Positions 8,458-41,717 of a stretch of 42,302 nucleotides of DNA are shown piece by piece; positions within the stretch are counted from its first letter, which is position 1; each line of letters starts with the position of its first letter. A model generated the notes under the pieces. That model searched no databases. It saw nothing but the letters and a program-made list of their open reading frames with translations, and was not told the DNA's origin. The stretch is from an uncultured Eubacteriaceae bacterium (lineage in GTDB: Bacteria; Bacillota; Clostridia; Peptostreptococcales; Anaerovoracaceae). A program made the position numbers and the translations under genes. The stretch spans positions 1-42,302 of the forward strand of contig CAIFEY010000028.1 of the NCBI GenBank assembly GCA_903789635.1, in the 5' to 3' direction.

Positions 8458-9034
8458 ACATATCTGATAATTGCACCATATTCCGATATATTTTCCAATT
8501 CGTAATCCTGGGCTTTTTGTTCTCTTTTTTAACATATGGATGATCATATGTCAATAAAAATTTTTTAAACTTGGGTGATTTTCGTCAATCCTTCACTATA
8601 TTGAACGTTATTTTGTTCACGAGAATAATTTTACCATCTCGTATTTTCAGATTTCAATCCCCAAATAATTCCGAATGTTTTCCAGTTTCATCCATTTCAC
8701 AACACATAAACTATATACTGCCTACATTAAATATGTCATACCCAATATGTTGTTGTTACAACAGATTTTTATGGCAAAAATTTCCTGTAAAATTTTTAAA
8801 TTTCGTGTCTGATGGCATACCTGATATCCGCCTTCCGCGAAGCCGCGTAATTAGATGTTCACGGCAGGTCCTGGGCGGACGGCGCGGGCACTGCGGTTCG
8901 AGGCGGAGCGCAGCGTACATTGCGCTCCACTGCGGCACGCTGTTCACCATGAATGAGCACGCTGCGGTACTCGGTTCATCATCATTTATCAGCGCGGAGC
9001 ATTACTGCCCGCGGCAGAATTCGGTGCCCCGCGT
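8458..9034. other. Divergent intergenic region between topA and yraN
   Basis: The left ~350 bp are strongly AT-rich with no gene. It contains AATTTCCTGTAAAAT (8779-8793), which matches the CodY consensus AATTTTCWGAAAATT at 12 of 15 positions. A hairpin GGAGCGCA/TGCGCTCC spans 8905-8928. From about 8820 composition turns GC-rich. No small gene is supported. Confidence 0.5.
8779..8793. promoter_or_regulatory. Candidate CodY box
   Basis: Three mismatches from the 15-bp CodY consensus, in the AT-rich region shared by divergent topA and yraN. It lies about 330 bp from yraN and 395 bp from topA, so it is far from either start. AT-rich DNA produces such matches by chance, so confidence is low. Confidence 0.3.
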
Positions 9035-9071
9035 TGGAAAATGTTGAAAAATGTTGATGGTTTCCACGCGT
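9035..9071 (+). promoter_or_regulatory. Shared 37-bp upstream motif, copy A (yraN side)
   Basis: A block with the core GTTGAAAAATGTTG and the end TTCCACGCGT. It is 31/37 identical, without gaps, to 35513-35549 (minus strand) upstream of the Tad operon. It ends 36 bp before the yraN start. In this copy the outer parts form an inverted repeat (GCGTTGGAAA and TTTCCACGCG). A possible -10 element CATAAT follows at 9082-9087. The most likely role is a regulator-binding site or a promoter of a specific sigma factor. Confidence 0.6.
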
Positions 9072-9107
9072 CCGGCCGGCGCATAATGATGGCGGGAGGA
9101 CGGTGCG

Positions 9108-9575
9108 ATGCAGACGAAGAGACAGACAAGTGCCAATTCAGCCGGTCGTGTAAATGATGTCCGGACCGGGCAGAGTCCGGCCGGTACAGCGAAAGCCGGG
9201 CATGGATTCGCCGGGCCTGTGATAACCGGGCCGGCGAAGGCCGATAAGAAACTGATCGGCGATCTCGGCGAGCAGTTCGCAGCCGGTGTGCTGTTCTCGG
9301 AAGGCTGGCGGATCCTGGAGCGCAAGTTCCGGTGTCCGCTCGGCGAGATCGACATCATCGCCGAGGGAGAGGACGGGTGCCTGTGCTTCATCGAGGTGAA
9401 AACCAGGATGAGCAGCCGCATGGGTCTGCCCGCGGAAGCCGTCGACGCCAGAAAGCAGCGGCGGATCAGGCGCACCGCGCAGTGGTATCTGCACGATCGC
9501 AGATTGGACGGCAGGCCGGTTCGGTTCATGGTCTTCGCCCTTTCCGGCAGCGAGATTGACACTTCCTTTTCCTGA
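9108..9575 (+). CDS. yraN: YraN family (UPF0102) endonuclease-fold protein
   Basis: A 155-residue UPF0102 protein with the restriction-endonuclease-like fold. The domain begins near residue 42 (KKLIGDLGEQFAAGVL) and carries the predicted nuclease core GEIDIIAE...CLCFIEVKTR at about 78-100. The family is usually ~120 residues, so the first 40 residues (Ala/Gly/Ser/Thr-rich) are an extension. The start has GGGAGGA 7 bases upstream. YraN is often encoded beside yifB and dprA, and members are implicated in DNA processing during recombination, although the biochemical role is not settled. The 37-bp motif shared with the Tad operon lies just upstream. Confidence 0.85.
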   Translation: MQTKRQTSANSAGRVNDVRTGQSPAGTAKAGHGFAGPVITGPAKADKKLIGDLGEQFAAGVLFSEGWRILERKFRCPLGEIDIIAEGEDGCLCFIEVKTRMSSRMGLPAEAVDARKQRRIRRTAQWYLHDRRLDGRPVRFMVFALSGSEIDTSFS

Positions 9576-10148
9576 GTGGCCCGCGGCGGGTTCGCCGCTG
9601 CAGGATCTGCACAGCGGGCTGACTGCTTCTTTTCCTCCGGCAGCAGCCACGCGGAAACGACTGCCAATTTCGACTGTCCATTCATCGAGACAGGCAGCGC
9701 GGACCGCCCTCCCGCCATGAACAAAAAAACGAAACGCGGCTGCTGACACGCCGCGTATGAACACGTACGAAAACACATTCATCTTTCATCGCGATATTAT
9801 TCGCACAATGCAACAGTATATCTCATGAATTAAGAATAAGCAAATCTGCTATCAATACATTCACACAAAATCCATAATAATAGAAATGACAGATTAAAAA
9901 AGTGATATTAACGACGAAAATTGCGATCAAACGAATCGCCGGATACGAAGGTCCGTGAACGAATACGAACGGATTTGAATGGATTTGATGGTAGGGTAAA
10001 TTCCATCCATTGGAAATGGCGAAATAAGAATGACATACACAATTACCAAAAATAACAGAAAGGAGGTTCGCCCGGCACACAGGAAGCGGCTGCTTCAGCA
10101 GCGCAGGCAGCAGTCAAGGCTTCGGCAGTGCGGGCGGCAGGAATTGCG
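9576..10148. other. Intergenic region between yraN and yifB
   Basis: 573 bp with no convincing gene. The left third is GC-rich and the centre (9780-10050) is AT-rich. A very strong ribosome-binding sequence AGAAAGGAGG ends at 10066, but no start codon follows within 20 bases. The yifB frame is open back to 10056, which would add an Ala-rich segment if translation began there at a non-standard codon. No hairpin with a U-run was seen. Confidence 0.4.
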
Positions 10149-11669
10149 ATGCTTTCAAAGCTCAACACAGCTGTAGTACAGGGAATTCAGGGACAGGCGG
10201 TGACGCTCGAGACGGACATCGCCTTCGGACTGCCGTCGGTCACGATCGTCGGGCTGGCGGATAAATCGGTCCGCGAGGCGCGGGACAGGATCCGGCCGGC
10301 GCTGATCAACAGCGGGTACTCGTTCCCCGCGTACCGGATCACGATGAACATTTCTCCGGCGGACGTGACCAAGCACGGCAGCCACCTGGACCTTCCGATG
10401 GCGATCGGGATCCTGCTGTCCTGCGAGGAGCTGGAGCCTTCAGTATCAGCCAGGTTCGCGTTCTTCGGTGAGCTGTCCCTGGACGGCTCGCTCAAGCCGG
10501 TCACGGGGATCCTGCCGATGGTCCGCGCGGTCAGGCAGAAAGGGATCCGCCGAGTCATCGTGCCGATGGAGAACGCGCAGGAGGCCTCGCTCGTGGACGG
10601 CGTGGAGGTCTACGGGATCTCGTGCATCAGGAGGATCGTGGACTTTCTGCAGGGTGAACTTTGTCTGAAGCCGCTCACGCGCGACCTCAGCCGATACGAG
10701 GAGACACGGGAGGACGACGGGATGGACTTCCTGGACGTGCGCGGGCAGGAGGCGGCCAAGCGCGCGCTGACGGTCGCGGTCGCGGGCGGACACGGGATCC
10801 TGATGACCGGAAGTCCTGCAACCGGCAAGACGATGCTCGCCGAGAGAGTGCCGGGGATCCTGCCGCCGATGGACCTCGAGGAGAAGCTTGGGCTGACGGA
10901 GATCTACTCGATCTGCGGGATGCTGGATCGGCGCCGTCCGTTCATGCACTGCCGGCCTTTCCGGCGTCCGCATTCGAGTCTGAGCCGGGCGGGAATGATC
11001 GGCGGCGGGGCGGAGCCGAGGCCTGGGGAGGTGCCCTTTGCCGACCACGGCGTGCTGTTCCTGGACGAGATGCCGGAGTTCCCCACCGCAACTCTGGAGA
11101 GCCTCCGCCTCCCGCTGGAGGAGCGGACCGTGCGCCTGATCCGGCGCGGGAGGACATTCGAGTTCCCGGCAGACTTCCTGCTCATCGCGGCGGCGAACCC
11201 CTGCCCGTGCGGCTACTACGGCGACCCGGACCACGAGTGTAAATGCAGCGCCGCGGACATCCGCCGCTACCAGAAGCGCCTCTCGGGCCCGCTGCTCAGC
11301 CGCATCGACATGCAGATCCACCTTCCTTCCCTGACTTACGACCAGGTGATGGAGGAAGGCCGGCTGGATTCGAGGGCGATGCGAGAGATGGTTGCCCGCG
11401 CCAGGGATGCGCAGACAAAGCGGTTCCGGAGCACAGGCATCCGCCTGAACTGCCGGATGGACGGTAAGATGCTCCGAAAATGGGCGCGCCTGGACAGCGA
11501 CTCTGAGCTGATTTTAAGAGACGCCTACGAGAAGCTGAACATGGATCCGCGTATGCTGGACAAGACCGTCAAGGTCGCCCGGACGATCGCGGACATCGAT
11601 GGCAGCGGGAAGATCCGCATGGACCACCTGACCGAGGCCCTCGCCTACCGCAGGAAGGAATCGATCTAG
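10149..11669 (+). CDS. comM: YifB/ComM family Mg-chelatase-like AAA+ helicase
   Basis: A 506-residue member of the YifB/ComM family. The N-terminal ChlI-type domain occupies about residues 1-125. The AAA+ domain has Walker A GSPATGKTM near residue 220 and Walker B VLFLDEMPEF near 302. A zinc-ribbon-like insert CPCGYYGDPDHECKC lies near 350, and the C-terminal Mg-chelatase helical domain follows. ComM proteins are hexameric helicases that promote branch migration when incoming DNA is integrated during transformation, and they also occur in species not known to be competent. The ATG at 10149 has AGGA 6 bases upstream and is preferred to a GTG seven codons earlier. The gene sits between yraN and dprA on the same strand. 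Confidence 0.92.
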   Translation: MLSKLNTAVVQGIQGQAVTLETDIAFGLPSVTIVGLADKSVREARDRIRPALINSGYSFPAYRITMNISPADVTKHGSHLDLPMAIGILLSCEELEPSVSARFAFFGELSLDGSLKPVTGILPMVRAVRQKGIRRVIVPMENAQEASLVDGVEVYGISCIRRIVDFLQGELCLKPLTRDLSRYEETREDDGMDFLDVRGQEAAKRALTVAVAGGHGILMTGSPATGKTMLAERVPGILPPMDLEEKLGLTEIYSICGMLDRRRPFMHCRPFRRPHSSLSRAGMIGGGAEPRPGEVPFADHGVLFLDEMPEFPTATLESLRLPLEERTVRLIRRGRTFEFPADFLLIAAANPCPCGYYGDPDHECKCSAADIRRYQKRLSGPLLSRIDMQIHLPSLTYDQVMEEGRLDSRAMREMVARARDAQTKRFRSTGIRLNCRMDGKMLRKWARLDSDSELILRDAYEKLNMDPRMLDKTVKVARTIADIDGSGKIRMDHLTEALAYRRKESI

Positions 11670-11820: not shown

Positions 11821-11940
11821 ATAAATGATAGGATAATTGCAACAGAAACGGAATAATCCCGGAGAACGGCATGAATGGAACGTTTTCCTGGATTTTATTC
11901 CGCATGCATAAAAATAACTATAGAAAATCAGGAGAATACT

Positions 11941-12810
11941 GTGATTAAAGAATATAAAAAAGGAGAGGCGGGGTACCCGGAGCAGTTCCTGGACCCCGCG
12001 TTATCAGACCCGCCGGATAAGGTCTACCTGGAGGGAAACCTCGATCTGCTGAACACGCCGATCCTCGCGGTCGTCGGGAGCCGCAAGTGCAGCCCCTACG
12101 GCGGAGCGATCAGCCGTGAAATCGGCGAGCAGGCGGCGAACGCCGGGATCACGGTCGTCAGCGGGCTCGCGGCAGGGATCGACTCCAGCGCGCAGCGCGC
12201 CTGCCTCCACCACGGCGGGAACGTCATCGCCGTGCTCGGGAACGGGCTGGACCTCTGCTACCCCGCGGAGAACCGCCGCCTGATGGAAGAGATCCGGGAA
12301 CAGGGGCTGCTCATCTCGGAGTACCCGCCCGCTTTCCCCGCCAGGAAGTGGACGTTTCCGGCCAGAAATCGGCTGATCACCGCCCTTTCCAGCGTCGTGA
12401 CCATCGTCGAGGCCTCGTTCCACAGCGGTGCCCTGAAGACCGCCGAGTTCGCGATCGACCAGGGCCGGACGCTGCTGGTCGTCCCAGGCAACATCACGAG
12501 CCGCTGCAGCGTTGGCACGAACCGGCTGCTGCCGTACATCGGCGGCGGCGACGTCTACCCGGTCTGCTCGGTCAGCGACATCTTTCAGTTCTTCGACCGC
12601 CGGCCGACCCAGAAGAACCGCGCAAAGCTCGGCGGCGACGAGAAGAAGATCCTCGACGCCGTCACGGCGTCCGGCGAGATTATGGTGGAGCGAATCAGCG
12701 CGGTCACCGGCTTCTCCCCGCAGTACGTGAACAGTCTCGTGACGATCCTGGAGATGAAGGGATTCGTGAATACCGGAATGGGCAGGGTTTTCGCGGCTGA
12801 AACCGAATAA
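11941..12810 (+). CDS. dprA: DNA-processing protein DprA
   Basis: DprA/Smf, which loads RecA on incoming single-stranded DNA during transformation. From the GTG at 11941 (AGGAGA 6 bases upstream) it has 289 residues. The frame is open back to an ATG at 11875, but that start lacks a ribosome-binding site. The Rossmann-like DprA domain starts near residue 40 (VVGSRKCSPYG) and includes GLAAGIDSSAQRACL, AVLGNGLDLCYPAENRRL, ISEYPP and VVPGNI. A C-terminal winged-helix (DML1-like) domain follows at about 225-285. The N-terminal SAM-like domain found in many DprA proteins is essentially absent. In many Firmicutes dprA lies just before topA in the same direction; here it is separated and divergent. 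Confidence 0.93.
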   Translation: MIKEYKKGEAGYPEQFLDPALSDPPDKVYLEGNLDLLNTPILAVVGSRKCSPYGGAISREIGEQAANAGITVVSGLAAGIDSSAQRACLHHGGNVIAVLGNGLDLCYPAENRRLMEEIREQGLLISEYPPAFPARKWTFPARNRLITALSSVVTIVEASFHSGALKTAEFAIDQGRTLLVVPGNITSRCSVGTNRLLPYIGGGDVYPVCSVSDIFQFFDRRPTQKNRAKLGGDEKKILDAVTASGEIMVERISAVTGFSPQYVNSLVTILEMKGFVNTGMGRVFAAETE

Positions 12811-26447: not shown

Positions 26448-27074
26448 TCATCCCGGCATACGGGACGAATCCGCGACGCGGCTTCCCGACGGCGCCGGCC
26501 TGCTGTACCCGCAGAGGAACGCCTCCTCGCGAACCCGGAAGATGCGCATCTTCAGCGCCCCGGCGTGCAGACCCTCCCCGGCCGCGATCTCCCAGGCGTG
26601 GCGGAGATACCCTTCCCCGTCCCCCTGGAGGTTTCCGGCCAGCATGTCGATGATGCTGCAGATCCCGTCGTGGAACTGGTTCATGGCGCAGATGTAGCTC
26701 TTCCTGTCGAGGCCCGCGCCCGTCCACGCGAGCGCGGCCTCCGGCGTCCTTCCCGCCCTTCGCCTGACAAAGACCAGGTCCGGGTGGATCAGATAGTCCC
26801 CGATGAACAGGAAGACGTCCTCCGCCCGCAGCATCCGGTCCAGGAGCGAGATCACGACATCGAGCGCCTCGCAGACGTCGAGCGGCCTGAAATCACGCAG
26901 GCTGACGTACCCTTCCGTCCGGAAGAGCCCGCAGACCCGCTCCTCGCCGTCCTCGCCGCGAATCCCCATGAATCTCACCGGCAGGAACAGCCCGGTGAAT
27001 CCCGTCTCCAGAATCTGCATGTGATAATTCTTGATATCTTCCTTTATATATTGAATCTCCAACCGTTCTTCCAT
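26448..27074 (-). CDS. DUF6382-type protein of the Tad locus, lacking an FHA domain
   Basis: A 208-residue cytosolic protein. Residues ~1-155 resemble the DUF6382 N-terminal domain found in Clostridial proteins encoded in Tad loci: an opening like IKNYHMQILETG, a FRPLDVCEALDVVISLLDRML helix region and a FLFIGDYLIHPDLVFVRR strand region. Relatives usually continue into a phosphothreonine-binding FHA domain after a linker; here the protein ends after about 50 more residues with no FHA motif. It is the last gene of the Tad operon, 61 bp after the TadE-like gene. Frame loss at the C-terminus is possible because the downstream DNA (26350-26447) is coding-like in composition, but I see no FHA remnant. 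Function unknown. Confidence 0.6.
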   Translation of the reverse strand: MEERLEIQYIKEDIKNYHMQILETGFTGLFLPVRFMGIRGEDGEERVCGLFRTEGYVSLRDFRPLDVCEALDVVISLLDRMLRAEDVFLFIGDYLIHPDLVFVRRRAGRTPEAALAWTGAGLDRKSYICAMNQFHDGICSIIDMLAGNLQGDGEGYLRHAWEIAAGEGLHAGALKMRIFRVREEAFLCGYSRPAPSGSRVADSSRMPG

Positions 27075-27134
27075 AATTAAACCCCTTTTTCGTCTTATAA
27101 TTTTATTTTTATACTGTTACATTATTATATCACT

Positions 27135-28058
27135 CTAACCGCCGCAGACCGTGCAGGGTGTGTAGCCGAGCTCCTCGGCGTGCGAACGGGTCGCCTGCTC
27201 GCACCAACGGTCGACCGAGCGGCAGTCGCCGTAATGGTACGCCTCCCCGTCCCGATCGAAGACGTACACCGGCGTCCCGATCGAGGCCGTCTTGGCGCTG
27301 CAGTTCGGGCACGGGTGGTACGACGATCGGACGTCCTCCGACAAAGGCACCATCCTGCAGGACGCCTTCACGTGCTGGCAGCTGCCCTGATGGTAACGGA
27401 CCCCATCCTCCGGGAAGATCCAGACCAGCGAGTCGTCGTCCTCGAAGCTCGACCTCGCGCTGCCGTCCCTGACCCTGCCCGTAAACGCGCGTCCGACGAC
27501 CGTCCCGCGGAACCTGATGTCGTCGAAGTTTCCGAGCGGGTCGTGCACACCGCCTTTTGCGCGGAAGCGAATCCGGATCAGGTCCTCGATGTTCCCGTGC
27601 GGGACGAGGTAGTCGTAGCTCTCGATGTAGAGGTGCTTGAGCGCGCTGCTCTCGCTGTGCGCCCTGGCCTCCAGCAGCACCGGCATCCGGCCGGGCGACT
27701 GATTCACCCTGCACAGCACGCCCTCCTGCCGGATCTCGTCGGCGGCGCACCAGACCACGTTCTCCCCCATCGCGATCACGGGAACGATCCCGATCAGCGC
27801 GATCGTCGCGAGGATGAACATCGGGACGATGATCGCCGCCTCCGTGATATAGCCGCCCTGTTTCGTACGGAGCTCCGCAGGCCGCAGTCTTCCCTGCCCA
27901 AGCTTTCCAAAGCAGGCACTGATACTGCGGAGCCCTTTCGCGGGCGCCGAAAGTATTCGCTTCCATAACAGCGGCAATGACGGCCGCCCGCCGCCCCGGC
28001 GGACATCAGGCGGGTGAACGTGGGATTTCCGGTATATTTTTTGTCTGCGGGGCCGCAT
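27135..28058 (-). CDS. Long TadE-like minor pseudopilin with C-terminal cysteine pairs
   Basis: 307 residues. A type IV prepilin-like site TKQG|GYITEAAIIVP is present after Gly68, with Glu at +5 and a following membrane helix (about 74-95). This fits TadE-type pseudopilins, but the leader of 68 residues is very long. The ~200-residue extracytoplasmic part ends in two zinc-ribbon-like pairs, CPNCSA near residue 255 and CTVCGG at the end, each with nearby His and Cys (HQGSCQHVKASC; HYGDCRSVDRWC). These cysteines could bind metal or form disulphides. I do not recognise a named family for the C-terminal part. It lies between the DUF5702 and DUF6382 genes; GAGGGTG precedes the start. Confidence 0.65.
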   Translation of the reverse strand: MRPRRQKIYRKSHVHPPDVRRGGGRPSLPLLWKRILSAPAKGLRSISACFGKLGQGRLRPAELRTKQGGYITEAAIIVPMFILATIALIGIVPVIAMGENVVWCAADEIRQEGVLCRVNQSPGRMPVLLEARAHSESSALKHLYIESYDYLVPHGNIEDLIRIRFRAKGGVHDPLGNFDDIRFRGTVVGRAFTGRVRDGSARSSFEDDDSLVWIFPEDGVRYHQGSCQHVKASCRMVPLSEDVRSSYHPCPNCSAKTASIGTPVYVFDRDGEAYHYGDCRSVDRWCEQATRSHAEELGYTPCTVCGG

Positions 28059-28107: not shown

Positions 28108-29628
28108 TTATTTTCCTTCTTTCTGCGGGTAGTACTCGCGCCGGATCGTGATGTCGTTCGAATTGACCGTGAGGGTTGCCTGGATGCCGCAGTAGTGGTC
28201 GCGAAGCTGGAAGTCGCCGTACCAGCCGTACTGCAGGTTCAGCTGGATCAGGTCCATCATGCGCAGCACGCGGAGCTCTTCATCTGTCATAGCGACAAAA
28301 AACCGCAGATAATCCTGATAATCCTCACCCCGATCGGATCCCGTATCGATGTACGGCACCTTCTCACGAAAACTGAGTTCAGTGTCCGAATGATCATCAT
28401 GATCATTTTTTGTCTCCTTTCCTTTCCCTTTGCTGTCGCTGGTCTCCTGCGCCTGTTTCTTCTGCTTCGCAGACAGGATCGAGTCGAGGTCGACCGCCCA
28501 GGTTGCCGCGTCCTTTCGGAACGCCACCTTCTTCCCGTTGAGCAGGAGCTGGACGTCGTTGTGGCTCTCCGCGAGTGCCCATGCGGCCTGCAGGAGTTTG
28601 GCCGTGGCGGCGGCCGGAGGTCCCGGCGTCAAAATCTCCGCCAGCAGCGTCGTCTCCTCGACCATCTTGGGATCCTGCATGATGTACCAGAGGTTCATCG
28701 CCTCCCGGACCGCGAGGATCCTGAGCTTGACGCCCCTCAGGTTCTGCTTGTCGTCCGGGTGGCCGCAGATCACGTACTCCACCTCGTTGTCGAAGTAGCA
28801 GCAGTCCCGGCCGCGGTCGTCCACGTGATCCCGGAAGTGGGCAAAGAGATACTGGTCCAGGAAGAATTTATCCGTCCCCTTCTCGATGACGTCTCCGAGC
28901 GACTGCATCCCCTTGACCGTACGTTTCAGCCGGTCTGCGGAGAACCCGTCCGAGACGCCGCTCGACGGCAGCGTGCCCAGGACCGCCTGGTTCGCGATTC
29001 TGCCCGTACGCTCCGCACTCGGGTGCGGGGCGACATAATTGTCCCCGCCGGAGCTTATCGAATCCGAAACATCGGAAACGTCCGGATCGCCCGACCCTCC
29101 GGAACCGCCGGAGCCGGTTGACCCTTTGGAAGAGCCCGAGTCGCCTGACGGCAGCCTCGGAACAGCAGAATCGGATGAGGAACCTGCGCCTCCTCCTTTG
29201 CCGCCTTTAGACGCGAGATCCGCCCCCGCCGTGATCAGCCTCTTTCCCGCGACGAGCTTTCCGACGTGGACCATCTGCTTCTTCATCCGCTCCTCGCTCC
29301 CGAGCGAATACGGGTCCAGGAAGACCTTGCTTCCGCCGTACTCGATGTAGTTCTTCTCCTGGAAGCTCTCGTTCGCGTAGAAGTCAAGCCGCGCGCGGGT
29401 CTCCCTGCTGGAGCCGTAGAAGCCGAAGATGTGGTACTGCTGCTGAAGAGGGAGGTCGTACTCCGCCAAAACCGACTCGCACCAGAGCCCGCCGAGCGCG
29501 TTCGCGCAGCTCGCCGTGCCGGTCCGCTTGGCCATCGTGACGAAGGCAAAGATCAGCGTCACCAGGGAAACGAAGAACAGCATGACGAACACTGTGACGG
29601 ATCCCTTCCTATTTCTGAACATACGCAC
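28108..29628 (-). CDS. DUF5702-type Tad locus membrane-anchored protein
   Basis: 506 residues. The N-terminus RNRKGSVTVFVMLFFVSLVTL looks like a pseudopilin or TadG-like anchor, with Gly9 and a membrane helix at about 10-32, but it lacks Glu at +5 (Phe instead). The large extracytoplasmic part resembles the DUF5702 family found in Clostridial Tad loci. It contains an early LPLQQQYHIFGFYGSS motif and a Gly/Ser/Asp-rich segment at about 150-200 that is likely a flexible linker. The gene overlaps the end of tadE by 20 bases, indicating translational coupling. Likely a minor pilus or surface component; the exact role is unknown. Confidence 0.7.
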   Translation of the reverse strand: MRMFRNRKGSVTVFVMLFFVSLVTLIFAFVTMAKRTGTASCANALGGLWCESVLAEYDLPLQQQYHIFGFYGSSRETRARLDFYANESFQEKNYIEYGGSKVFLDPYSLGSEERMKKQMVHVGKLVAGKRLITAGADLASKGGKGGGAGSSSDSAVPRLPSGDSGSSKGSTGSGGSGGSGDPDVSDVSDSISSGGDNYVAPHPSAERTGRIANQAVLGTLPSSGVSDGFSADRLKRTVKGMQSLGDVIEKGTDKFFLDQYLFAHFRDHVDDRGRDCCYFDNEVEYVICGHPDDKQNLRGVKLRILAVREAMNLWYIMQDPKMVEETTLLAEILTPGPPAAATAKLLQAAWALAESHNDVQLLLNGKKVAFRKDAATWAVDLDSILSAKQKKQAQETSDSKGKGKETKNDHDDHSDTELSFREKVPYIDTGSDRGEDYQDYLRFFVAMTDEELRVLRMMDLIQLNLQYGWYGDFQLRDHYCGIQATLTVNSNDITIRREYYPQKEGK

Positions 29629-29986
29629 TCACTTCCTCCCCGACCAGGATCGCGTCCGCCGGGCGCAGCAGGTACAGCCTTCCCCGGCTCTCGTGCCGCA
29701 TCCCGATCGAGGTGATTCCGCGCATCGTCCGCTCCGTGGTCTCCGACGTCTTCGTGATCTTGTATACACCGGTGAATGTCTCCTGGCGCGTCAAAAGCTC
29801 CTTGTGCACGCCGATCTGCGTCTGCAGGCAGGCGTAGAAGTAGATCAGGAGCAGGATCATGCTCAGGATCACGAGGATGACCAGCGGCAGCACGATCGAT
29901 GCCTCTACAATCTCCTCGCCCCTCTTGTTCAGGATTTTCGGCATTTTGCCACGCATAAACCGCGCCATTCCCTTCCGTTCGAACAT
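29609..29986 (-). CDS. tadE: TadE-family pseudopilin
   Basis: 125 residues. The motif NKRG|EEIVEASIVLPLVIL gives a prepilin cleavage site after Gly23 with Glu at +5, followed by a ~22-residue membrane helix, as in TadE minor pseudopilins. The mature extracytoplasmic part is about 75 residues. The ribosome-binding site GGAGGAGG lies 8 bases before the start. Downstream overlap of 20 bases with the DUF5702 gene. It would need a prepilin peptidase (TadV/CpaA type) that is not encoded in this window. Confidence 0.8.
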   Translation of the reverse strand: MFERKGMARFMRGKMPKILNKRGEEIVEASIVLPLVILVILSMILLLIYFYACLQTQIGVHKELLTRQETFTGVYKITKTSETTERTMRGITSIGMRHESRGRLYLLRPADAILVGEEVSAYVQK

Positions 29987-30036: not shown

Positions 30037-30222
30037 TTAACCGTTCAGCGTCTTGAACGTCTTGTTGATGAACGCTGTGATCTGCTCGTCAAAGATGATT
30101 CCCAAAGCGACGGCAAGCGCAATCAGAATCGCGACCTGGACCATCTCCATTCCCTGCTTATTGTTCGATTCCCGCAGGAATTCCTGAATCTTGAGTTTGA
30201 GCAAAAGAAGTCTCATATACAT
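30037..30222 (-). CDS. flp: Flp-type major pilin precursor
   Basis: 61 residues from the ATG at 30222 (AAAGGA 8 bases upstream); a longer open frame reaching 30291 has no ribosome-binding site. A basic leader of 24 residues ends NNKQG, followed by the hydrophobic stretch MEMVQVAILIALAVALGIIF and a short tail. This fits Flp1-like pilins of Gram-positive Tad systems. The residue at +5 after the predicted cut (Gly24/Met25) is Gln29 rather than the usual Glu, with a Glu at +2 instead. Pilin subunits are normally the most abundant product, and 190 bp of partly AT-rich DNA upstream could hold its own promoter. Confidence 0.8.
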   Translation of the reverse strand: MYMRLLLLKLKIQEFLRESNNKQGMEMVQVAILIALAVALGIIFDEQITAFINKTFKTLNG

Positions 30223-30412
30223 GTTTTCTGTCCTTTCTTGCTGTTCGCGGAGGCATGCGGTTCCGGCCGGCTTTGCCGCGCGCGGATGCACGCCTCGCGT
30301 GATTACATTGTTTATCGAATATTATCAATACTGTTTAGAAATAATAAATTGGCGAATATTTCTGCGACAAGCCGCGCCGCCGAGCCATCAACGCCGTCGA
30401 CACCGTCATCTG

Positions 30413-31621
30413 CTACATCTGAAGCGCGGCCGGTGCCGCGGTCACGGTGATCAGCACGAGCAGCAGCAGAGCCAAAGGCACCGCGAGGCGAGTCTCCGCG
30501 AGCTTTCCTCGCTTTTCCGCCGCGCCCTTGCGCTCCTCCCAGAGGCGGCTTCGCTCCTTCTCCAGGATCTCCAGTATGTCCGTACCGCGGATCTGATTCG
30601 CAGCGACCGTCTCCGCGAAGCGGCTGAAGTTCTCGTTCTTCTCCTCCTCGGCGATGTCGGACAGCACGCGCATCAGGCTCCTTTTGCTGTTCTCCGCGCG
30701 CGTCTGCACGCGCAGGATCAGGCCGTAGAAATACCCGTTTCGCTCCTGCCGGCGGTAGCCGTCCGCGATCATCTGAAACGCGTCGTGGAACACGAGGCCG
30801 CAGTTCAGCAGCAGGATCAGCTGGTCGTTGAACGCCGGAAGCGCGCGAGAGATCGACTCCCTCCTCTCCTTCTCCTCACGCTTCAGCTTGTCTTTGTCCT
30901 GAATGTAGAGGAAGGCGCAGAGCAGCGGCCCCATCGCGAGCAGGAGCAGGAACTCGTAGCTGGACTTCTTCTTCCACGTCATCACGGTTCCGTCCGCCAT
31001 GCGCGATGGGAGCGAGACCTTCCTGGTCCCCGCCGTCTCCGCGTCGCGAACCGCCTGCTGGATCGCACGCCTCAGCTCCTCCTTCGGGTCCTGCTTCTCC
31101 TCAACGCGGACGCTCCCGTCCCCCTCCAGCACGACCGTCACGTCCTTCTTCACGCTGCGCCGGCCCTTCTTCGCCTCGACGGACAGCGGAAACGACGCCT
31201 GCTCACTCTTCTTTTCCCGCAGAAGCCCCGAAACCAGCCCGTCGCCGCCGACGATGTACTTCTCCGCCGACGTCATTCCCTTGCCGACCTGCATCCCCGC
31301 CAGCAGGATCGCCGCGGCCAGCAGCAGGCAGACATACTGGAAATTTTTTCCCCTTTTCAGGAACGCCTGCACCTCCGCCGCCTTCTGATCGGCGATCTCT
31401 GACAGGTCGCTCTCCTCCCAAAATTGCCGCAGCCCCTCCAAATGTTTGAATCTGAGCCGGTCCCTCGGCCTGCGCGGTTCCTTCTGTTCTCTTCGGCTGC
31501 TCTGTTCATTGTCTGCGCTGTATTCGCCGTCTCTGCTGTATTTGCTGCGATCGTCGTGATCGTTCCGGCCGGCCTTTTTCCCGGTCCGTTTTCTCTTTCC
31601 CGACAAAATTTCCCCGTGCAT
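30413..31621 (-). CDS. tadC: TadC-like pilus assembly membrane protein
   Basis: Type II secretion F-domain platform protein, 402 residues from the ATG at 31621, which has AAGGAGGTG 7 bases upstream; an earlier in-frame Met lacks one. The first ~95 residues are highly charged (Arg/Lys/Asp/Glu). A membrane helix (YVCLLLAAAILLAGM) follows, then a ~110-residue extracytoplasmic segment, a second helix (FLLLLAMGPLLCAFLYI), the cytoplasmic F domain (ALPAFNDQLILLLNCGL...RGTDILEILEKE) and a last helix at the C-terminus. The extracytoplasmic insert is longer than I expect in TadC. It pairs with TadB to form the inner-membrane platform for Flp export. Confidence 0.78.
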   Translation of the reverse strand: MHGEILSGKRKRTGKKAGRNDHDDRSKYSRDGEYSADNEQSSRREQKEPRRPRDRLRFKHLEGLRQFWEESDLSEIADQKAAEVQAFLKRGKNFQYVCLLLAAAILLAGMQVGKGMTSAEKYIVGGDGLVSGLLREKKSEQASFPLSVEAKKGRRSVKKDVTVVLEGDGSVRVEEKQDPKEELRRAIQQAVRDAETAGTRKVSLPSRMADGTVMTWKKKSSYEFLLLLAMGPLLCAFLYIQDKDKLKREEKERRESISRALPAFNDQLILLLNCGLVFHDAFQMIADGYRRQERNGYFYGLILRVQTRAENSKRSLMRVLSDIAEEEKNENFSRFAETVAANQIRGTDILEILEKERSRLWEERKGAAEKRGKLAETRLAVPLALLLLVLITVTAAPAALQM

Positions 31622-31644
31622 TTCTTCACCTCCTTTTCTGCCGC

Positions 31645-32388
31645 CTAGACGGCGATGTCCGTAATCCGGTCGATTAGCCGGTACGCGGCCGCGGCCATCA
31701 GCAGACATACGGTCATGGTGATCCTCCCCGCAAGACTTGTATACAAAACCGCGATGTACTCGGGCGAGACCAGCCTCAGGAACAGGATGACCAGTGCCGG
31801 CATAACGGTAATTATTTTCCCTTCATATTGTTTCTGTGCGATCATCAGCTCGATGTCCTGTTCGATTTTAATTTTGTCCTGCAGGACGGATGCGCATTTT
31901 CTTACCGAACTGCAGAAGTCTCCGCCCGCTGTACGCGAACCCTGAAACACCTGAACGAGGTCCTGCGCGTCCTCCAGATCCGCCCGCGCCGCGAACCAGC
32001 GCAGCGCCTCCAGGTCCGTCATGCCGGCCAGGTCCATCTGCGTGCGCATCTCGCGGACCGCGAGGATGATCGGCTGACCCTCGTCGTAGACGTTCAGCAG
32101 CTCCTTCTCGACCTCGCCCAGTGCCTCCCGCATGTGGCGCCCGGTCTCCATCGAAGACGCGAGGCACCGCAGGAAGTCCTGAAACTGCCTGCGCAGGATT
32201 TTTTTCTGCCTCCTGCACAGGAACTCGGCCGCGAGCTTTTCTGCCGGCTTGAGCAGAAACGGGACCAGCAGGAGGGGCAGCAGACTGCTGTAGAACAGCA
32301 GCCCGACCAGCAGGATGAACACGGCGAGCAGGGTTATCGTCCTGCACCGTTCGGCCTTTGTCAGCTGAAAATCAGAGTAATCCCTCAT
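31645..32388 (-). CDS. tadB: TadB-like pilus assembly membrane protein
   Basis: 247 residues, type II secretion F family. Two N-terminal membrane helices (about 18-45), a cytoplasmic F domain with FLRCLASSMETGRHMREAL and AGGDFCSSVRKCASVL, and two C-terminal helices. Shorter than many TadB proteins because the N-terminal extension is minimal. It overlaps the end of tadA by 17 bases and is followed by tadC after 23 bp, so the three are probably translationally coupled. Confidence 0.8.
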   Translation of the reverse strand: MRDYSDFQLTKAERCRTITLLAVFILLVGLLFYSSLLPLLLVPFLLKPAEKLAAEFLCRRQKKILRRQFQDFLRCLASSMETGRHMREALGEVEKELLNVYDEGQPIILAVREMRTQMDLAGMTDLEALRWFAARADLEDAQDLVQVFQGSRTAGGDFCSSVRKCASVLQDKIKIEQDIELMIAQKQYEGKIITVMPALVILFLRLVSPEYIAVLYTSLAGRITMTVCLLMAAAAYRLIDRITDIAV

Positions 32389-33835
32389 GCCCGTACCCTC
32401 CCTGCAATAGCTTCTGCCTCCTCATCAGCCGGTTTCCCGTCGCCCTGAGGCCGGTGTCCGGTTCGTAGAGAAACAGCGGATTCAGGTTGTATTCATGCGC
32501 CTCCACGCCGACGATCTCCTCGACCTCGGACACGACGCGCCGCCCGTCCGGAAGGCGCGTCAGGTGAACCATCACGTCGAGCGCCTCCACGATCTGGCAC
32601 CGGATCGCGTCGATCGGCACGTTCGCGTTCATCAGGCACATCGCCTCCAGGCGCCGTAGCATGCCGCTCACGGAGTTGCCGTGACCCGTGGAGAGCCCGG
32701 AGTGACCGGTGTTCAGCGCCTGCAGCATCAGCGCTGCCTCGGCGCCTCTTACCTCGCCGACGATGATCCGACTCGGCCGCATTCGGAGGCTCGTCCGGAT
32801 CAGGTCGGCCATCGATACAACGCCCTTTCCCGCGGAGTTCGCCTGGCGGCACTCCATCTGGACCAGGTTCGGAATCTGCTCCATCATGAGCTCCCTCGAG
32901 TCCTCGATCACGATCACGCGCTCCTGCCTTGGAATGTAGTCGGTCAGCGCGTTCAGGAACGTCGTCTTTCCCGAGGACGTCCCGCCGCTGATGAAGATGC
33001 TGCAGCCGCACGCGGTCAGGATCTTCAGCGCCTCCGCGCACTCCTGCGTCATAGACCCTGTTCTGACCAGGTCGTCCGCCGTCATCCTCCGCTGCCCGAA
33101 CTTACGGATCGTCAGCACCGGTCCGTCCGCCGCCACGTTTCGGTAGACGGCGTTCACGCGCGAACCGTCGGGCAGACGGGCGTCCAGAATCGGGTTCATC
33201 TCGTTGATCTCACGGTGCACGCCTGCCGCGATCCTTCGGATGTACTCCTCGAGCTCCTCCGTGCTCTCAAAGCTTTCGCCGCACCGGACGATCCCCTTCC
33301 CGGTCTCGATAAAGATCTTCTCCCTGCCGTTGACCATGATCTCGGAGACGTCCTCGCTCTTCAGGTACGGATCCAGGATTCCCCGCTCCGCCCGCACGTG
33401 CAGGTCCATGTACTCCAGGACCTGGTCGTACTCCTCTACGCTCAGGTTCTCATGCGCGTCCAGGATCACCTCCTCGACTATCCTTTGAAAATCGGCGTCC
33501 GCGATCCGCTCCTCCCTGCCGTCCAGATAGGCCTCGCGGATGCGCCGCCTAACCGCACCCAGGTTCTTAGGATCGCGGCAGAACCGCATCGCCCGCGCGG
33601 ACGCCCTGCGCCGCGCCTCCATCAGCTCACCCGTGTCCGCCATCGCCAAAGGCCCAGGCCGTTCCATCGTCCCTTCCGCTCCTGCCGCCTGAGCTGCCGC
33701 CGCAGCGGGTCCCGCATCTGAAAACATTCCCGTATACAGAGCAGCATCTCCCTCCGGCGATCTCGGCGCGCGCGGCGCATGATCATCCTGCGGCGGTCCG
33801 CCCGTTCTCCTGCTTACGAATTCCTCGATATTCAT
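32372..33835 (-). CDS. tadA: Tad pilus assembly ATPase TadA/CpaF
   Basis: 487-residue secretion ATPase that powers Flp pilus assembly, and in some systems retraction. Walker A is GGTSSGKTT at about residues 284-292. The Asp box and Walker B region read VIEDSRELMM and IIVGEVRGAEA. His-box sequence TGHSGLSTGHGNS follows. The N-terminal domain has RIAAGVHREINEMNPILDARLPDGSRVNAV. The first ~100 residues are a variable Ala-rich linker. It lies between tadZ and tadB on the same strand. Confidence 0.92.
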   Translation of the reverse strand: MNIEEFVSRRTGGPPQDDHAPRAPRSPEGDAALYTGMFSDAGPAAAAAQAAGAEGTMERPGPLAMADTGELMEARRRASARAMRFCRDPKNLGAVRRRIREAYLDGREERIADADFQRIVEEVILDAHENLSVEEYDQVLEYMDLHVRAERGILDPYLKSEDVSEIMVNGREKIFIETGKGIVRCGESFESTEELEEYIRRIAAGVHREINEMNPILDARLPDGSRVNAVYRNVAADGPVLTIRKFGQRRMTADDLVRTGSMTQECAEALKILTACGCSIFISGGTSSGKTTFLNALTDYIPRQERVIVIEDSRELMMEQIPNLVQMECRQANSAGKGVVSMADLIRTSLRMRPSRIIVGEVRGAEAALMLQALNTGHSGLSTGHGNSVSGMLRRLEAMCLMNANVPIDAIRCQIVEALDVMVHLTRLPDGRRVVSEVEEIVGVEAHEYNLNPLFLYEPDTGLRATGNRLMRRQKLLQGGYGHEGLL

Positions 33836-33940: not shown

Positions 33941-35467
33941 CTAGCCGCGTTCCTCCAGCCACGCGGCGATCTGTCCGAAGTCCAAGCCGATGCACCCGGA
34001 CAGGTCGATCCGAAGCCGCCCGCCCATCCGGATAAACGCCTCCGGGCAGTCCGAGACGGAGAACGACGGGTGCGGATCGTCCGCGTCCCGCGGCCTCTCG
34101 CCCTGCTCCGCGCCCTTCTTCCGTCCGTTCCCGGCCGAGGAGCGGCCGTATCTCTTGTCTTCGTTGTCCTCGCTGTCGCCTGCCCGGTAATCGAATCTGT
34201 TTATGCGCTCCCCGCGCTCGTATGGATGCCCGCGTTTGTTCTCCGTCTTATGCGCGCGCCTGCCTTCGGATTCCCGGCCGCGATTGTGATTATCTTCACG
34301 ATTGTATTCATGATCGTCCTCCTCGACTTCGCCGCCTTCCCCCGCGCCGTACAGCACCGAGCGGAACTGGCTTCCCTCCCCGTCGTCGCGGTTCTGGATC
34401 ATCGCGGCCTGCGGGAACAGGTCCAGCATCCGCTTCTCCCAGTTCCTGCGGAACGTCGTCCGGTGGACCTCCGGACCCTCGCCGACGACCAGCACCGCGC
34501 CGCAGCTCTGCATCAGCTCGATGTGGTGCTCCGTCAGCCCGGTCCCGAAGTCGAGCAGAATGTGGTGAAAACCGCCCTGCCTCTGCAGTTCGGCGATCAG
34601 CATGTCCAGGTCGGCCGCGCCGACGTGCTCGTCCAGGCCCGTCACCGTTCCGCGGAAGTACCAGACGCCCGCGTCCTCGGCCAGGTACGGCAGAATCGGG
34701 ACATGGCGTCCTCGCTTCAGCGCGTAGAGCAGCGGCAGGAGGCTGCAACTCCCCTCCTTCTTCAGGTAATTCCCCGAGTCGTCCACCGGCGTCATGTTGA
34801 GATACAGGCACTTCCTGCCGTAGACCTCGTGCAGCATCCGCGCGCACGAGAGCGCGCAGGCCGTCACCCCGCTGCCGCCGCCCGCGCCGCAGAAAGCCGC
34901 AGACGAAACGCGGGAGAGCGACAGGTACTCCGCCGGCCTCCCCATCCGCCAGAACCACAGCTGGTTCAGCGCGTCCAGGATCAGCTTCCTGGTGATCAGA
35001 GGAGGCTGGTCGGACGGGAGATCCTCGCCGTCCGCATCACCGCTGTAACGGCGGTTCTCATAAGGCTCTTCAGCATCCAACCAGCTGCCGCCGCTTTTCG
35101 CAGTGCCTTCTCCAGTGCCTTCTTCAGTGCCTTCCTCCCGATCTTCTATTATTTTTTCCTTTTCGTCCCAGTCGTCCGGCTCGCACGAGCCGCTACTCCA
35201 GGGCAGATCTTCCTCCGCGAACGCGAGCGTCAGGCCGCGCCCGGCGCTCGGCAGGTACACGCAGCGGTCAGAATACCGCTCCTCGATCTCCTTGATGTCG
35301 GTAATCCAGAGGTCGGCGCCGTCGGCGCAGTCGCCGCGGCACTGTAAATATTCCGGAACGTCCGCCTGGCGAAAGCGCATCCTGCGGGAAACCGCACTCA
35401 TGCCGCGCACAATCGCCGCGCCTAATTGTTTGTCAGAAGACACAATATTTACGCGAATCTGTCTCAA
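33941..35467 (-). CDS. tadZ: TadZ/CpaE-like polar localisation protein with degenerate P-loop
   Basis: 508 residues starting at TTG (35467), which has AAGGAGG 9 bases upstream; the next ATG is 18 codons in. The N-terminal receiver-like part (1-120) and the central ParA/MinD-like domain fit TadZ/CpaE, which places the pilus machine at a cell site. The expected deviant Walker A (KGGxGKT) appears as GAGGGSGVT near residue 195, without either lysine, so ATP binding is doubtful. A very charged low-complexity insert (HEYNREDNHNRGRESEGRR and on, about 375-460) precedes the last segment. It is the first gene of the Tad operon and follows the 37-bp motif shared with yraN. Confidence 0.75.
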   Translation of the reverse strand: MRQIRVNIVSSDKQLGAAIVRGMSAVSRRMRFRQADVPEYLQCRGDCADGADLWITDIKEIEERYSDRCVYLPSAGRGLTLAFAEEDLPWSSGSCEPDDWDEKEKIIEDREEGTEEGTGEGTAKSGGSWLDAEEPYENRRYSGDADGEDLPSDQPPLITRKLILDALNQLWFWRMGRPAEYLSLSRVSSAAFCGAGGGSGVTACALSCARMLHEVYGRKCLYLNMTPVDDSGNYLKKEGSCSLLPLLYALKRGRHVPILPYLAEDAGVWYFRGTVTGLDEHVGAADLDMLIAELQRQGGFHHILLDFGTGLTEHHIELMQSCGAVLVVGEGPEVHRTTFRRNWEKRMLDLFPQAAMIQNRDDGEGSQFRSVLYGAGEGGEVEEDDHEYNREDNHNRGRESEGRRAHKTENKRGHPYERGERINRFDYRAGDSEDNEDKRYGRSSAGNGRKKGAEQGERPRDADDPHPSFSVSDCPEAFIRMGGRLRIDLSGCIGLDFGQIAAWLEERG

Positions 35468-35512
35468 TTGCCCCTCCTCCTTTCGTCCTCAACCCCAGCC
35501 TAACACGGCGGC

Positions 35513-35549
35513 ACGCGTGGAAGAAACCAACATTTTTCAACCTTTTCCC
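35513..35549 (-). promoter_or_regulatory. Shared 37-bp upstream motif, copy B (Tad operon side)
   Basis: Minus-strand counterpart of 9035-9071: core GTTGAAAAATGTTG is identical, and the end TTCCACGCGT is identical. It ends 45 bp before the tadZ start and points toward it, as copy A points toward yraN. Confidence 0.6.
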
Positions 35550-40251: not shown

Positions 40252-40336
40252 CTTCGGCGCCCAGGCAGCGCATCGCCGCGGCCTTCAAGTTCCTTGCCGC
40301 AGCTGACTCCTTCGGATACAAAGAATACCGTACAGA

Positions 40337-40370
40337 AAACGCACCAAATTTGGTGCGTTTTTCTTTATTT
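40337..40370 (+). terminator. Palindromic terminator overlapping the pezAT promoter
   Basis: AAACGCACCAAA (40337-40348) and TTTGGTGCGTTT (40349-40360) form a perfect 24-bp palindrome followed by TTCTTTATTT. As RNA it is a terminator for the rib operon. As DNA it lies immediately upstream of the pezA -10 box, where an antitoxin operator is expected, so it may do both jobs. Confidence 0.7.
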
Positions 40371-40380
40371 ATGCTATAAT
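40371..40380 (+). promoter_or_regulatory. Extended -10 promoter of pezAT
   Basis: ATGCTATAAT: a perfect TATAAT at 40375-40380 with an upstream TGC, 24 bp before the pezA start. TTGGTG at 40350-40355 is a possible -35 but at 19-base spacing. The overlapping palindrome could let PezA repress it. Confidence 0.65.
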
Positions 40381-40404
40381 GTTGGGGTATGCAGGAGGTG
40401 CTTT

Positions 40405-40881
40405 ATGATTGGAGAGAATATTAAATCGCTGCGGCGGACGCTGGATCTGACGCAGCCGGAATTCGCGGCGATGGTCGGCATTTCGAGGAACAGTCTCAGC
40501 AGGTATGAGAACGGGACGAGCTCAGTCTCGACCGACCTGATCGATCGGATCTGCCAGAAATTCAACGTTTCCTACGTCGACATCGTCGGGAAGGACAAGA
40601 TGCTGAGCCCGGCGGAGGACTTTCAGCTGTCGATGCGGATCGAGGTGATGAAGGAGCGCGGTTCGGCGATCCTTGCCCGGCTGTACCGGTACCTCGACAG
40701 TCTCGGTATCGACTTTGACGACGACACCAACCCGTGGGTCCTGATCTGCGACGACCTGGCCGACCTCATCAACACTAGGCTCTACCTCGCCGACACGTTC
40801 GAGGAGCTGGAGCGCTGCGGCGGGTACCTGGACGGCATCGAGCGCATGCTGAACCTGGCCGGTGACCGGGTGACTGCCTGA
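40405..40881 (+). CDS. pezA: PezA-like antitoxin, HTH regulator
   Basis: 158 residues from the ATG at 40405, with AGGAGGTG 5 bases upstream; the frame is open to 40294, but that part crosses the terminator and promoter. An XRE-type helix-turn-helix lies at about residues 4-58 (IKSLRRTLDLTQPEFAAMVGISRNSLSRYENG). The C-terminal ~90 residues are mostly helical and acidic, as expected for a domain that wraps around the zeta-type toxin. The last base of its stop overlaps the pezT start (TGATG), so the two are translationally coupled. It probably represses its own operon through the palindrome at 40337. Confidence 0.82.
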   Translation: MIGENIKSLRRTLDLTQPEFAAMVGISRNSLSRYENGTSSVSTDLIDRICQKFNVSYVDIVGKDKMLSPAEDFQLSMRIEVMKERGSAILARLYRYLDSLGIDFDDDTNPWVLICDDLADLINTRLYLADTFEELERCGGYLDGIERMLNLAGDRVTA

Positions 40882-41717
40882 TGCGCCCTGGAGATTTCAG
40901 CGAAGCCGATTTTCAACGCGCCCTGCGGCGCAACATCCGCGCGCTGACCCGCGCCAAGACGCCGCCACACAGTCCCGAGGCCATCCTGCTCGGCGGGCAG
41001 AGCGGCGCCGGTAAGACGATCATTCACCGTATCAAGCAAAAGGAATTTTTCGGAAATATCATCATCATCGACGGTGACAGCTATCGCTACCAGCACCCCT
41101 CCTACAGCAGCCTCCAGGCGCGCTACGGCAAAGAATGCGTGACCTACACACGAAAGTTTTCCGGGAAAATGGTCGAGCGCCTGATCGACGAGCTCAGCCT
41201 CTCAGGCTACCATCTCTTGATCGAAGGGACCCTCCGAACCGAAAAGATCCCGCGCCGGACCGCGCAGCTCCTGAAATCCAGGGGCTACCGCGTCTCCCTC
41301 GCCCTGATCGCGACCAAACCCGAACTTTCCTGGCTCGCCACAAGGATCCGCTACGAGGAGCTCTACAGCATCAACCCCGGCCGCGCCCGCGCGACCCCGA
41401 AGGCGCACCACGACGCCATCGTCTCCCACCTGGTGGACAACCTGCGCCGCCTCGAGGCTGAGAACCTCTTCGACCGCATCCAGATCTACCAGCGCGACAA
41501 GACCTGCGTCTACGACTCCGACGCCGCAGAATCGGACAACTCCGAGGTCACCGGGTCCGCAGTTCCCGGCGGCGGAGGATCTCATATCGCCGACTCCCCC
41601 GCCGCGGCCAAGATGCAGGAGATCCTGTTCGGAAAGTGGACCCCGGCGGAGAAGGAGATCCTCCGCCAGGGCGAGATCCAGCTGCGGGAACTCCGCGAGC
41701 GGAACGACCATTTTTAA
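40881..41717 (+). CDS. pezT: PezT/zeta-type toxin kinase
   Basis: 278 residues. Zeta/PezT toxins phosphorylate UDP-N-acetyl sugars, blocking cell-wall synthesis. The P-loop GGQSGAGKT is at about residues 38-46. The putative catalytic Asp is in IIDGDSYRYQHP near 64-75, and GYHLLIEGTLRT (about 108-119) and an Arg-rich SWLATRIRYEE follow. The family is usually ~250 residues; the extra ~60 C-terminal residues include a Gly/Ser-rich stretch (VPGGGGSH). It directly follows pezA. Such pairs are common on integrative elements, but here it sits between the rib operon and a repeat cluster, with no integrase in the window. Confidence 0.82.
   Translation: MRPGDFSEADFQRALRRNIRALTRAKTPPHSPEAILLGGQSGAGKTIIHRIKQKEFFGNIIIIDGDSYRYQHPSYSSLQARYGKECVTYTRKFSGKMVERLIDELSLSGYHLLIEGTLRTEKIPRRTAQLLKSRGYRVSLALIATKPELSWLATRIRYEELYSINPGRARATPKAHHDAIVSHLVDNLRRLEAENLFDRIQIYQRDKTCVYDSDAAESDNSEVTGSAVPGGGGSHIADSPAAAKMQEILFGKWTPAEKEILRQGEIQLRELRERNDHF

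Follow-up and report, generated by a model that had tools for sequence, protein, structure and literature searches.

A control element common to a Tad pilus operon and DNA-processing genes suggests a competence regulon in a Clostridial lineage

The window, which is the whole stretch of 42,302 nucleotides analysed here, carries two copies of one element, site A ahead of the yraN-comM-dprA group and site B ahead of a Tad pilus operon (Table 1), and a control element was found to be common to genes for a potential uptake filament and genes for DNA processing. With a probability of roughly two in three, this element combines a promoter with an activator-type operator and controls a competence regulon in which the Tad pilus would serve as the DNA-uptake filament. 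Joint regulation of the Tad and transformation genes had been proposed in a sequence-only reading of the window, and it gained support from further sites before radA and a MinD-like ATPase gene, and from common control sequences of relatives at tad, yraN-comM-dprA, recA, comEC, comEA and PC4-like genes.

Table 1. Positions in the window of the two sites, their candidate promoter boxes and the genes behind them.
Feature	Coordinates	Strand	Basis or remark
Site A left part	9034..9056	+	tandem 10-bp repeats TTGGAAAATG TTGAAAAATG TTG; 14-mer GTTGAAAAATGTTG at 9043-9056
Site A right part, TTCCACGCGT	9062..9071	+	contains TTCCACGCG
Candidate -10 box CATAAT, yraN operon	9082..9087	+	by eye; spacing from motif
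yraN, first in group	9108..9575	+	NCBIfam YraN family 3.8e-29, 101 bits vs cut-off 109
comM (YifB family Mg-chelatase-like ATPase)	10128..11669	+	TIGR00368 7e-156
dprA	11875..12810	+	TIGR00732 3e-60
Two more genes, co-directional, after Tad operon	26448..28058	-	ORFs only; no Pfam match
DUF5702 protein, Tad operon	28108..29628	-	PF18960 5.5e-53
TadE-like minor pilin	29609..29986	-	PF07811, below cut-off
Flp-type pilin	30037..30291	-	PF16982 6e-8, just under cut-off
tadC-like platform gene	30413..31708	-	PF00482 2e-8
tadB-like platform gene	31645..32388	-	PF00482, below curated cut-off
tadA, pilus ATPase	32372..33835	-	PF00437 1e-45; TIGR03819 5e-80, below its cut-off
First Tad gene, TadZ/CpaE-like	33941..35467	-	name inferred from position and P-loop; no Pfam/NCBIfam match
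Candidate -10 box TAGGCT, Tad operon	35497..35502	-	by eye
Site B right part, TTCCACGCGT	35513..35522	-	sequence
Site B left part	35528..35549	-	contains GTTGAAAAATGTTG (35541 to 35528)

The Tad operon encodes the set expected of a Tad (type IVc) pilus, namely the TadA ATPase, two single-domain platform genes, an Flp pilin and TadE, of which the tadB-like, Flp and TadE genes scored below the curated Pfam cut-offs. No A24 prepilin peptidase was seen among the nine Tad-operon proteins scanned against Pfam. Elsewhere the window has a PezA-like antitoxin gene (NCBIfam 3e-84, just under the cut-off) followed by a 278-aa P-loop ORF, possibly, by eye, a PezT-like toxin (40294-41717), and an imperfect direct repeat with 59 of 72 bases identical (1986-2057 versus 2109-2180).

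Direct alignment of 9035-9071 (plus strand) with 35513-35549 (minus strand) reproduced the match first reported for these blocks, an ungapped 31/37 that takes in the perfect 14-mer GTTGAAAAATGTTG and TTCCACGCGT. As had also been described, both blocks are oriented toward the first gene of their group. The yraN ATG (9108) follows its block by 36 bp, and the TTG at which the first Tad gene starts (35467) follows the other by 45 bp. The identity of 31/37 alone is unremarkable, because other, longer repeats of the window reach up to 35/37 as 37-mers; the evidential weight was therefore placed on the genome-wide count and the gene context. A strict motif, GTTGAAAAATGTTG-N5-TTCCACGCGT, with 24 fixed positions and at most three mismatches allowed, gave two matches in the window versus none in any of 100 dinucleotide-preserving shuffles. 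Across the genome (2,635,323 bases) it gave four matches, with 0, 0, 2 and 3 mismatches, at a calculated chance expectation of 0.002-0.004 (for 23 fixed positions and at most three mismatches), and the reversed motif gave none. Fisher and hypergeometric values were also calculated but, depending on assumed totals, were set aside. The four sites precede the yraN-comM-dprA group, the Tad operon, radA (TIGR00416 3e-160) and a lone gene for a MinD-like ATPase, which lies upstream of ftsE (CpaE homolog family TIGR03815 4e-4, far below cut-off). A Tad role for this ATPase is a guess, since it has only a short P-loop match in common with the first Tad gene. That a repeat or mobile sequence lies before the two operons by chance, as two near-identical copies within 27 kb might suggest, is next to negligible as an explanation: the 2.64-Mb genome has only four copies, all of them a short way before a gene and followed by a -10-like box at 9-10 bases, rather than the scattered copies expected of a generic repeat.

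TTCCACGCG is invariant across all four genomic sites, and the -10-like boxes behind them read CATAAT, TAGGCT, TATAAT and TATGCT, at 10 bases from the motif in three cases and at 9 at the radA site. No good canonical -35 box was visible by eye at these sites, TTCCACG filling that region, and the architecture looks like that of an activator-dependent promoter.

The genome also holds comEC, comEA, dprA and recA (recA by eye). Matches had been expected mainly before comEA/comEC, ssb, recA or Tad genes, and as worded this expectation fails: radA and the MinD-like gene were the further sites, comEC showed no clear operator site, comEA had the left half alone, in diverged form, and at recA the operator was weak and inverted. 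When a matrix of the four sites was scanned over 273,492 positions of stretches from this genome, the leader of a second pilus operon (contig C30) ranked fourth and the comEA leader eighth, with further matches at the tandem copy in site A and at a place on contig C21 (locus L210, rank 7). The C30 leader carries the motif's left half, GTAGAAAAATGTTG, some 80 bp ahead of the second pilus-type operon (L215 3769-3784, C30 at about 16.77 kb), which encodes a SAF-domain protein, a MinD-like protein (by eye), a T2SSE ATPase and more. Because C30 carries two more T2SSE ATPases, Tad is not the sole candidate filament in this genome.

Conservation before the orthologous operons had been anticipated as well, and as worded this too fails: in its strict form the motif is absent, with no match in 147 other genomes of the family, three of them of the same genus, yet related control sequences stand at the same operons in most same-genus relatives. 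The 16 other genomes of the genus are distant, with best matches 41-53% identical for ComM and 55-65% for TadA. A ComM match and a TadA match were found in all 17 genomes (as fragments only in G160), and of 15 Tad loci read, nine have riboflavin genes, named by eye, in divergent orientation next to the Tad operon, as in the window. Scoring of relatives' loci with the window's own pattern was dropped, its scores being at shuffle level; with the strict motif absent too, orthologous promoters were read singly. Most of the relatives' Tad promoters read ATGGnAAATAATGGTTGAC-N5-TATGGGGAA-N2-TGnTA (the fit is poor for G004 and G093, and no promoter came from G160).

Model R2 was built from 12 of the relatives' Tad promoters only and scanned over the 17 genomes. 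Its eight non-training matches at E<=0.02 comprised four at the distal recA promoter after cinA (G149, G153, G154, G159), two at yraN (G153, G154), one at tad (G156) and one other, an unrelated odd leader in G153 that scored best. Model R3, from 22 tad, yraN and recA cores, gave 35 matches at E<0.01, namely the 22 training sites and 13 new ones: one recA, two yraN, four PC4-like genes (three by Pfam, one by eye only), one groES and five others. The tad rows of G004 and G093 (L072, L073), poor or different, are absent from both models; L080, L083 and L075 are in R2 and not in R3, which also leaves out the yraN rows L012, L017, L024 and L026.

In 148 genomes of the family, R3 gave seven matches at E<=0.003: the Tad operon in two species of another genus, a PC4-like gene in two species of a third genus, groES in the same two, and one place in coding DNA. 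Tad of another genus and the PC4-like genes of two genera were thus recovered by a model without training on them. One PC4-like product of the third genus was scanned (PF02229 2e-10) and the other is nearly identical; the 75-aa gene behind the element there matches YdbC / SP_0782 (PDB 2ltd, 2l3a) at 8e-21 and 3e-19. Among 80 TadA loci from public records, the five best-ranked have a place ahead of TadA that R2 or R3 marked (E 5e-11 to 0.1); two of the five are apparently genomes already used. Three other candidates among the 80, L270, L293 and L296 (E 0.005-1.7), were rejected as not being Tad promoters. Misses in these scans prove little, because at most 150 candidate places were scored per genome in the genus scans and stricter filters were applied in the family scan.

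Several matches lie outside the expected genes. They include places inside yraN coding DNA (G009), in the leader ahead of citrate synthase (G153:C17, no Rfam match), beside a transposase-like gene (G151:2163145), at a contig end (G152:C81) and before unknown proteins (G153:C48, G151:1461976), and groES, named by eye, is matched in three genomes of two genera (G152, G011, G095). Rfam searches of six loci returned only a lysine riboswitch. At the groES promoters L189, L222 and L223, from two genera, the same element is present as TTGAC-N5/6-ATGGGGAA. In L197 and L199 the element stands ahead of two unknown proteins for which Pfam gave no match; in L199 a gene for an A24 prepilin peptidase follows (PF01478 2e-14).

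These matches bear on the question whether the element is simply the generic sigma-A promoter style of the genus, marking these genes by chance and with no special regulator. The relatives' element does include TTGAC, a spacing of 17 bases and an extended -10, and some unrelated promoters match it. A 29-base promoter matrix was made from ten Tad promoters, with a threshold of 10 bits. It was reached in 9 of 12 yraN windows and 9 of 14 recA windows, as against 0 of 41 control windows of radA, comEC and comEA, which argues against a generic style. Judged by the spacer bases alone, yraN stands above the controls (p 5e-6), but recA, in keeping with a generic style, fails to do so (p 0.14). Widening of the window raised the recA count from 7 to 9 of 14; the seven loci previously found by a model all pass, and of the other seven, fetched through synteny with comEA, two pass, G148 and G150, whose sequences are near-identical. 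The yraN windows omit G152, G156, G157 and G160 (in G156 comM has no preceding yraN), the 14 radA windows omit G149 and G160, the 12 comEC windows omit G142, and neither G152 nor G160 contributed recA. The promoter model has no match at comEC and comEA, and the element is absent from the relatives' radA promoters.

A 16-base operator matrix was derived from the upstream part of 13 of the relatives' Tad promoters, AATGGnAAATAATGGT, and here comEC and comEA are carriers, the controls being only radA and the other windows of a set of 257. At 15 bits or more it marked comEC in 6 of 12 windows, comEA in 4 of 15, yraN in 2 of 12, recA in 2 of 14 and radA in 0 of 14, with a background of 1 in 153,342 positions of other loci, mostly coding. 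All 15 of the 257 distinct promoter windows that reached 13 bits are tad (9), comEC (3), comEA (2) or a recA leader (1), eight of them non-training sites; the 257 are not random promoters, the loci having largely been fetched because of these genes. Taken with the apparent lack of a canonical -35 box at the window's own sites, these counts make a generic sigma-A style quite improbable.

Returning to the operator of the proposed competence regulon, the matrix placed site A (9040-9055) third among the 84,574 positions of the window, at 8.4 bits, and the best 16-mer of site B sixteenth, at 3.2 bits; among 2000 composition shuffles, 2 and 83, respectively, reached these scores. The radA and MinD-like sites are not distinct under this matrix (419 and 410 of 2000 shuffles). 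By eye, the local and the relatives' forms both fit TG-N2-AAAT-N2-TG, and on this ground the 14-mer GTTGAAAAATGTTG may be taken as a diverged local form of the relatives' operator, with the left part of site A likewise read as a local form.

Of the relatives' 14 recA leaders, nine show the operator by eye, inverted and beyond the distal promoter on its downstream side; six do so with a score of at least 13 bits. Nearer to recA, and separate from the element, stands a GAAC-N4-GTTC box, present in all 15 leaders printed, that of the window's own genome included, which we take to be an SOS-type box for LexA. By eye, the common motif has no resemblance to this SOS box and no likeness to the ComK or ComX/CIN-box consensus sequences. 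An inverted repeat such as AAATGGTAATTA...TAATTACCATTT overlaps the distal recA promoter (by eye; L330, L334, L194, L201), and in L334 both arms change together (GGCAATT/AATTGCC). Such co-changing arms suggest a dimeric DNA-binding protein.

The genes might also form a joint regulon for colonising surfaces, or for general stress and DNA repair, rather than for transformation; Tad would then mediate adhesion, GroES would answer stress, and RecA, RadA, ComM and DprA would carry out repair. RadA, RecA and ComM also act in repair, and the groES matches in two genera would fit such a regulon. The operator, on the other hand, stands also at the relatives' comEC and comEA, whose known role is DNA transport, and recA keeps its separate SOS-type box in every leader printed, which makes a stress or colonisation regulon unlikely.

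The competence regulon is the preferred reading. ComEC was found in 14 of 17 genomes, including all 13 of the nearly complete ones, and ComEA above cut-off in 16 of 17. In nine (G004, G148, G149, G150, G151, G152, G157, G158 and G159, G152 being only 83% complete) no T2SSE ATPase other than TadA exceeds the Pfam cut-off, and Tad is accordingly the only evident filament there. The matches to groES and several unrelated promoters count against this reading, as do the five R3 matches at E<0.01 to unrelated or unknown genes. Further points against it are the absence of the strict motif from the 147 other family genomes, the pass rate of just two in seven among recA loci fetched without the models, the weakness of the relatives' matrix at site B, the lack of a clear comEC site in this genome and the two more T2SSE ATPases on its contig C30.

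The following mechanism is proposed. The left half of the motif (TG-N2-AAAT-N2-TG, with the 10-bp tandem at site A) would be a locally diverged version of the operator present in relatives at the promoters of tad, comEC, comEA and recA and at some of those of yraN-comM-dprA. The right half, TTCCACGCG, occupies the expected -35 place, 9-10 bases before the -10-like box, and appears lineage-specific. On this reading a single operator would stand behind both forms, and a single putative regulator would bind it and turn on the Tad pilus together with the proteins that receive and integrate single-stranded DNA, namely ComM, DprA and RadA here, and RecA and the PC4-like ssDNA-binding protein in relatives. 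The Tad pilus would then act as a DNA-uptake filament feeding ComEA and ComEC. A wider prediction, for and against which we see about equal odds, is that species of this Clostridial family, probably Anaerovoracaceae to judge from named neighbours such as Candidatus Crickella equi, are naturally transformable by way of Tad, and that the putative regulator binds TG-N2-AAAT-N2-TG at tad, comEA, comEC, comM-dprA and recA and also governs the PC4-type ssDNA-binding gene, the regulon having been kept in the window's lineage despite drift of the operator.

To our knowledge, many Clostridia have ComEC, ComEA and DprA without a known DNA-uptake pilus. If Tad is wired into a competence regulon, it becomes a candidate for the missing uptake filament in Clostridia. 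The model, if true, would predict which species may be transformable, promoter activity would report the competent state, and the genetics of gut anaerobes that are hard to transform would be aided.

In streptococci, ComX (SigX) places the uptake pilus, comEA/comEC, dprA, radA and cinA-recA under one control, the pilus there being ComG and the promoter the CIN box. The arrangement proposed here is like this regulon in its single control over an uptake pilus and DNA-handling genes, and differs from it in having Tad with TG-N2-AAAT-N2-TG or TTGAC-N5-TATGGGGAA elements instead of ComG with the CIN box. A further likeness is YdbC / SP_0782, a PC4-like ssDNA-binding protein as is the 75-aa product of the third genus; SP_0782 may act in transformation, though the literature searched gave no confirmation of this.

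Excerpts from the literature describe Tad pili that serve DNA uptake or transformation in other phyla. In Micrococcus luteus, an actinobacterium, the Tad (Flp) pilus is required for transformation (PMC6668835, PMC6916266), and in Liberibacter crescens, an alphaproteobacterium, Tad was reported to be essential for motility and DNA uptake, being paired with ComEC in genomes that have no other type IV pilus (PMC8513845). Bulleidia extructa, of the Bacillota, has tad and comG loci side by side, with competence assigned to comG and Tad to adhesion (PMC12786226, in the text excerpted), and a Tad locus alone therefore does not imply DNA uptake. Its genome resembles the present ones in combining a Tad pilus and competence genes in a low-GC Gram-positive bacterium, and differs in that 9 of the 17 genomes here have no filament ATPase above cut-off other than TadA. 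A link between Tad and competence in Clostridia was found in none of the literature matches listed and is not described in the excerpts of PMC8467076, PMC12786226 and PMC6916266. As in Liberibacter, a Tad pilus occurs here together with ComEC. Unlike in the accounts of Micrococcus and Liberibacter, the link here is a common control element with comM-dprA, recA, comEA and comEC, and the host belongs to a Clostridial family.
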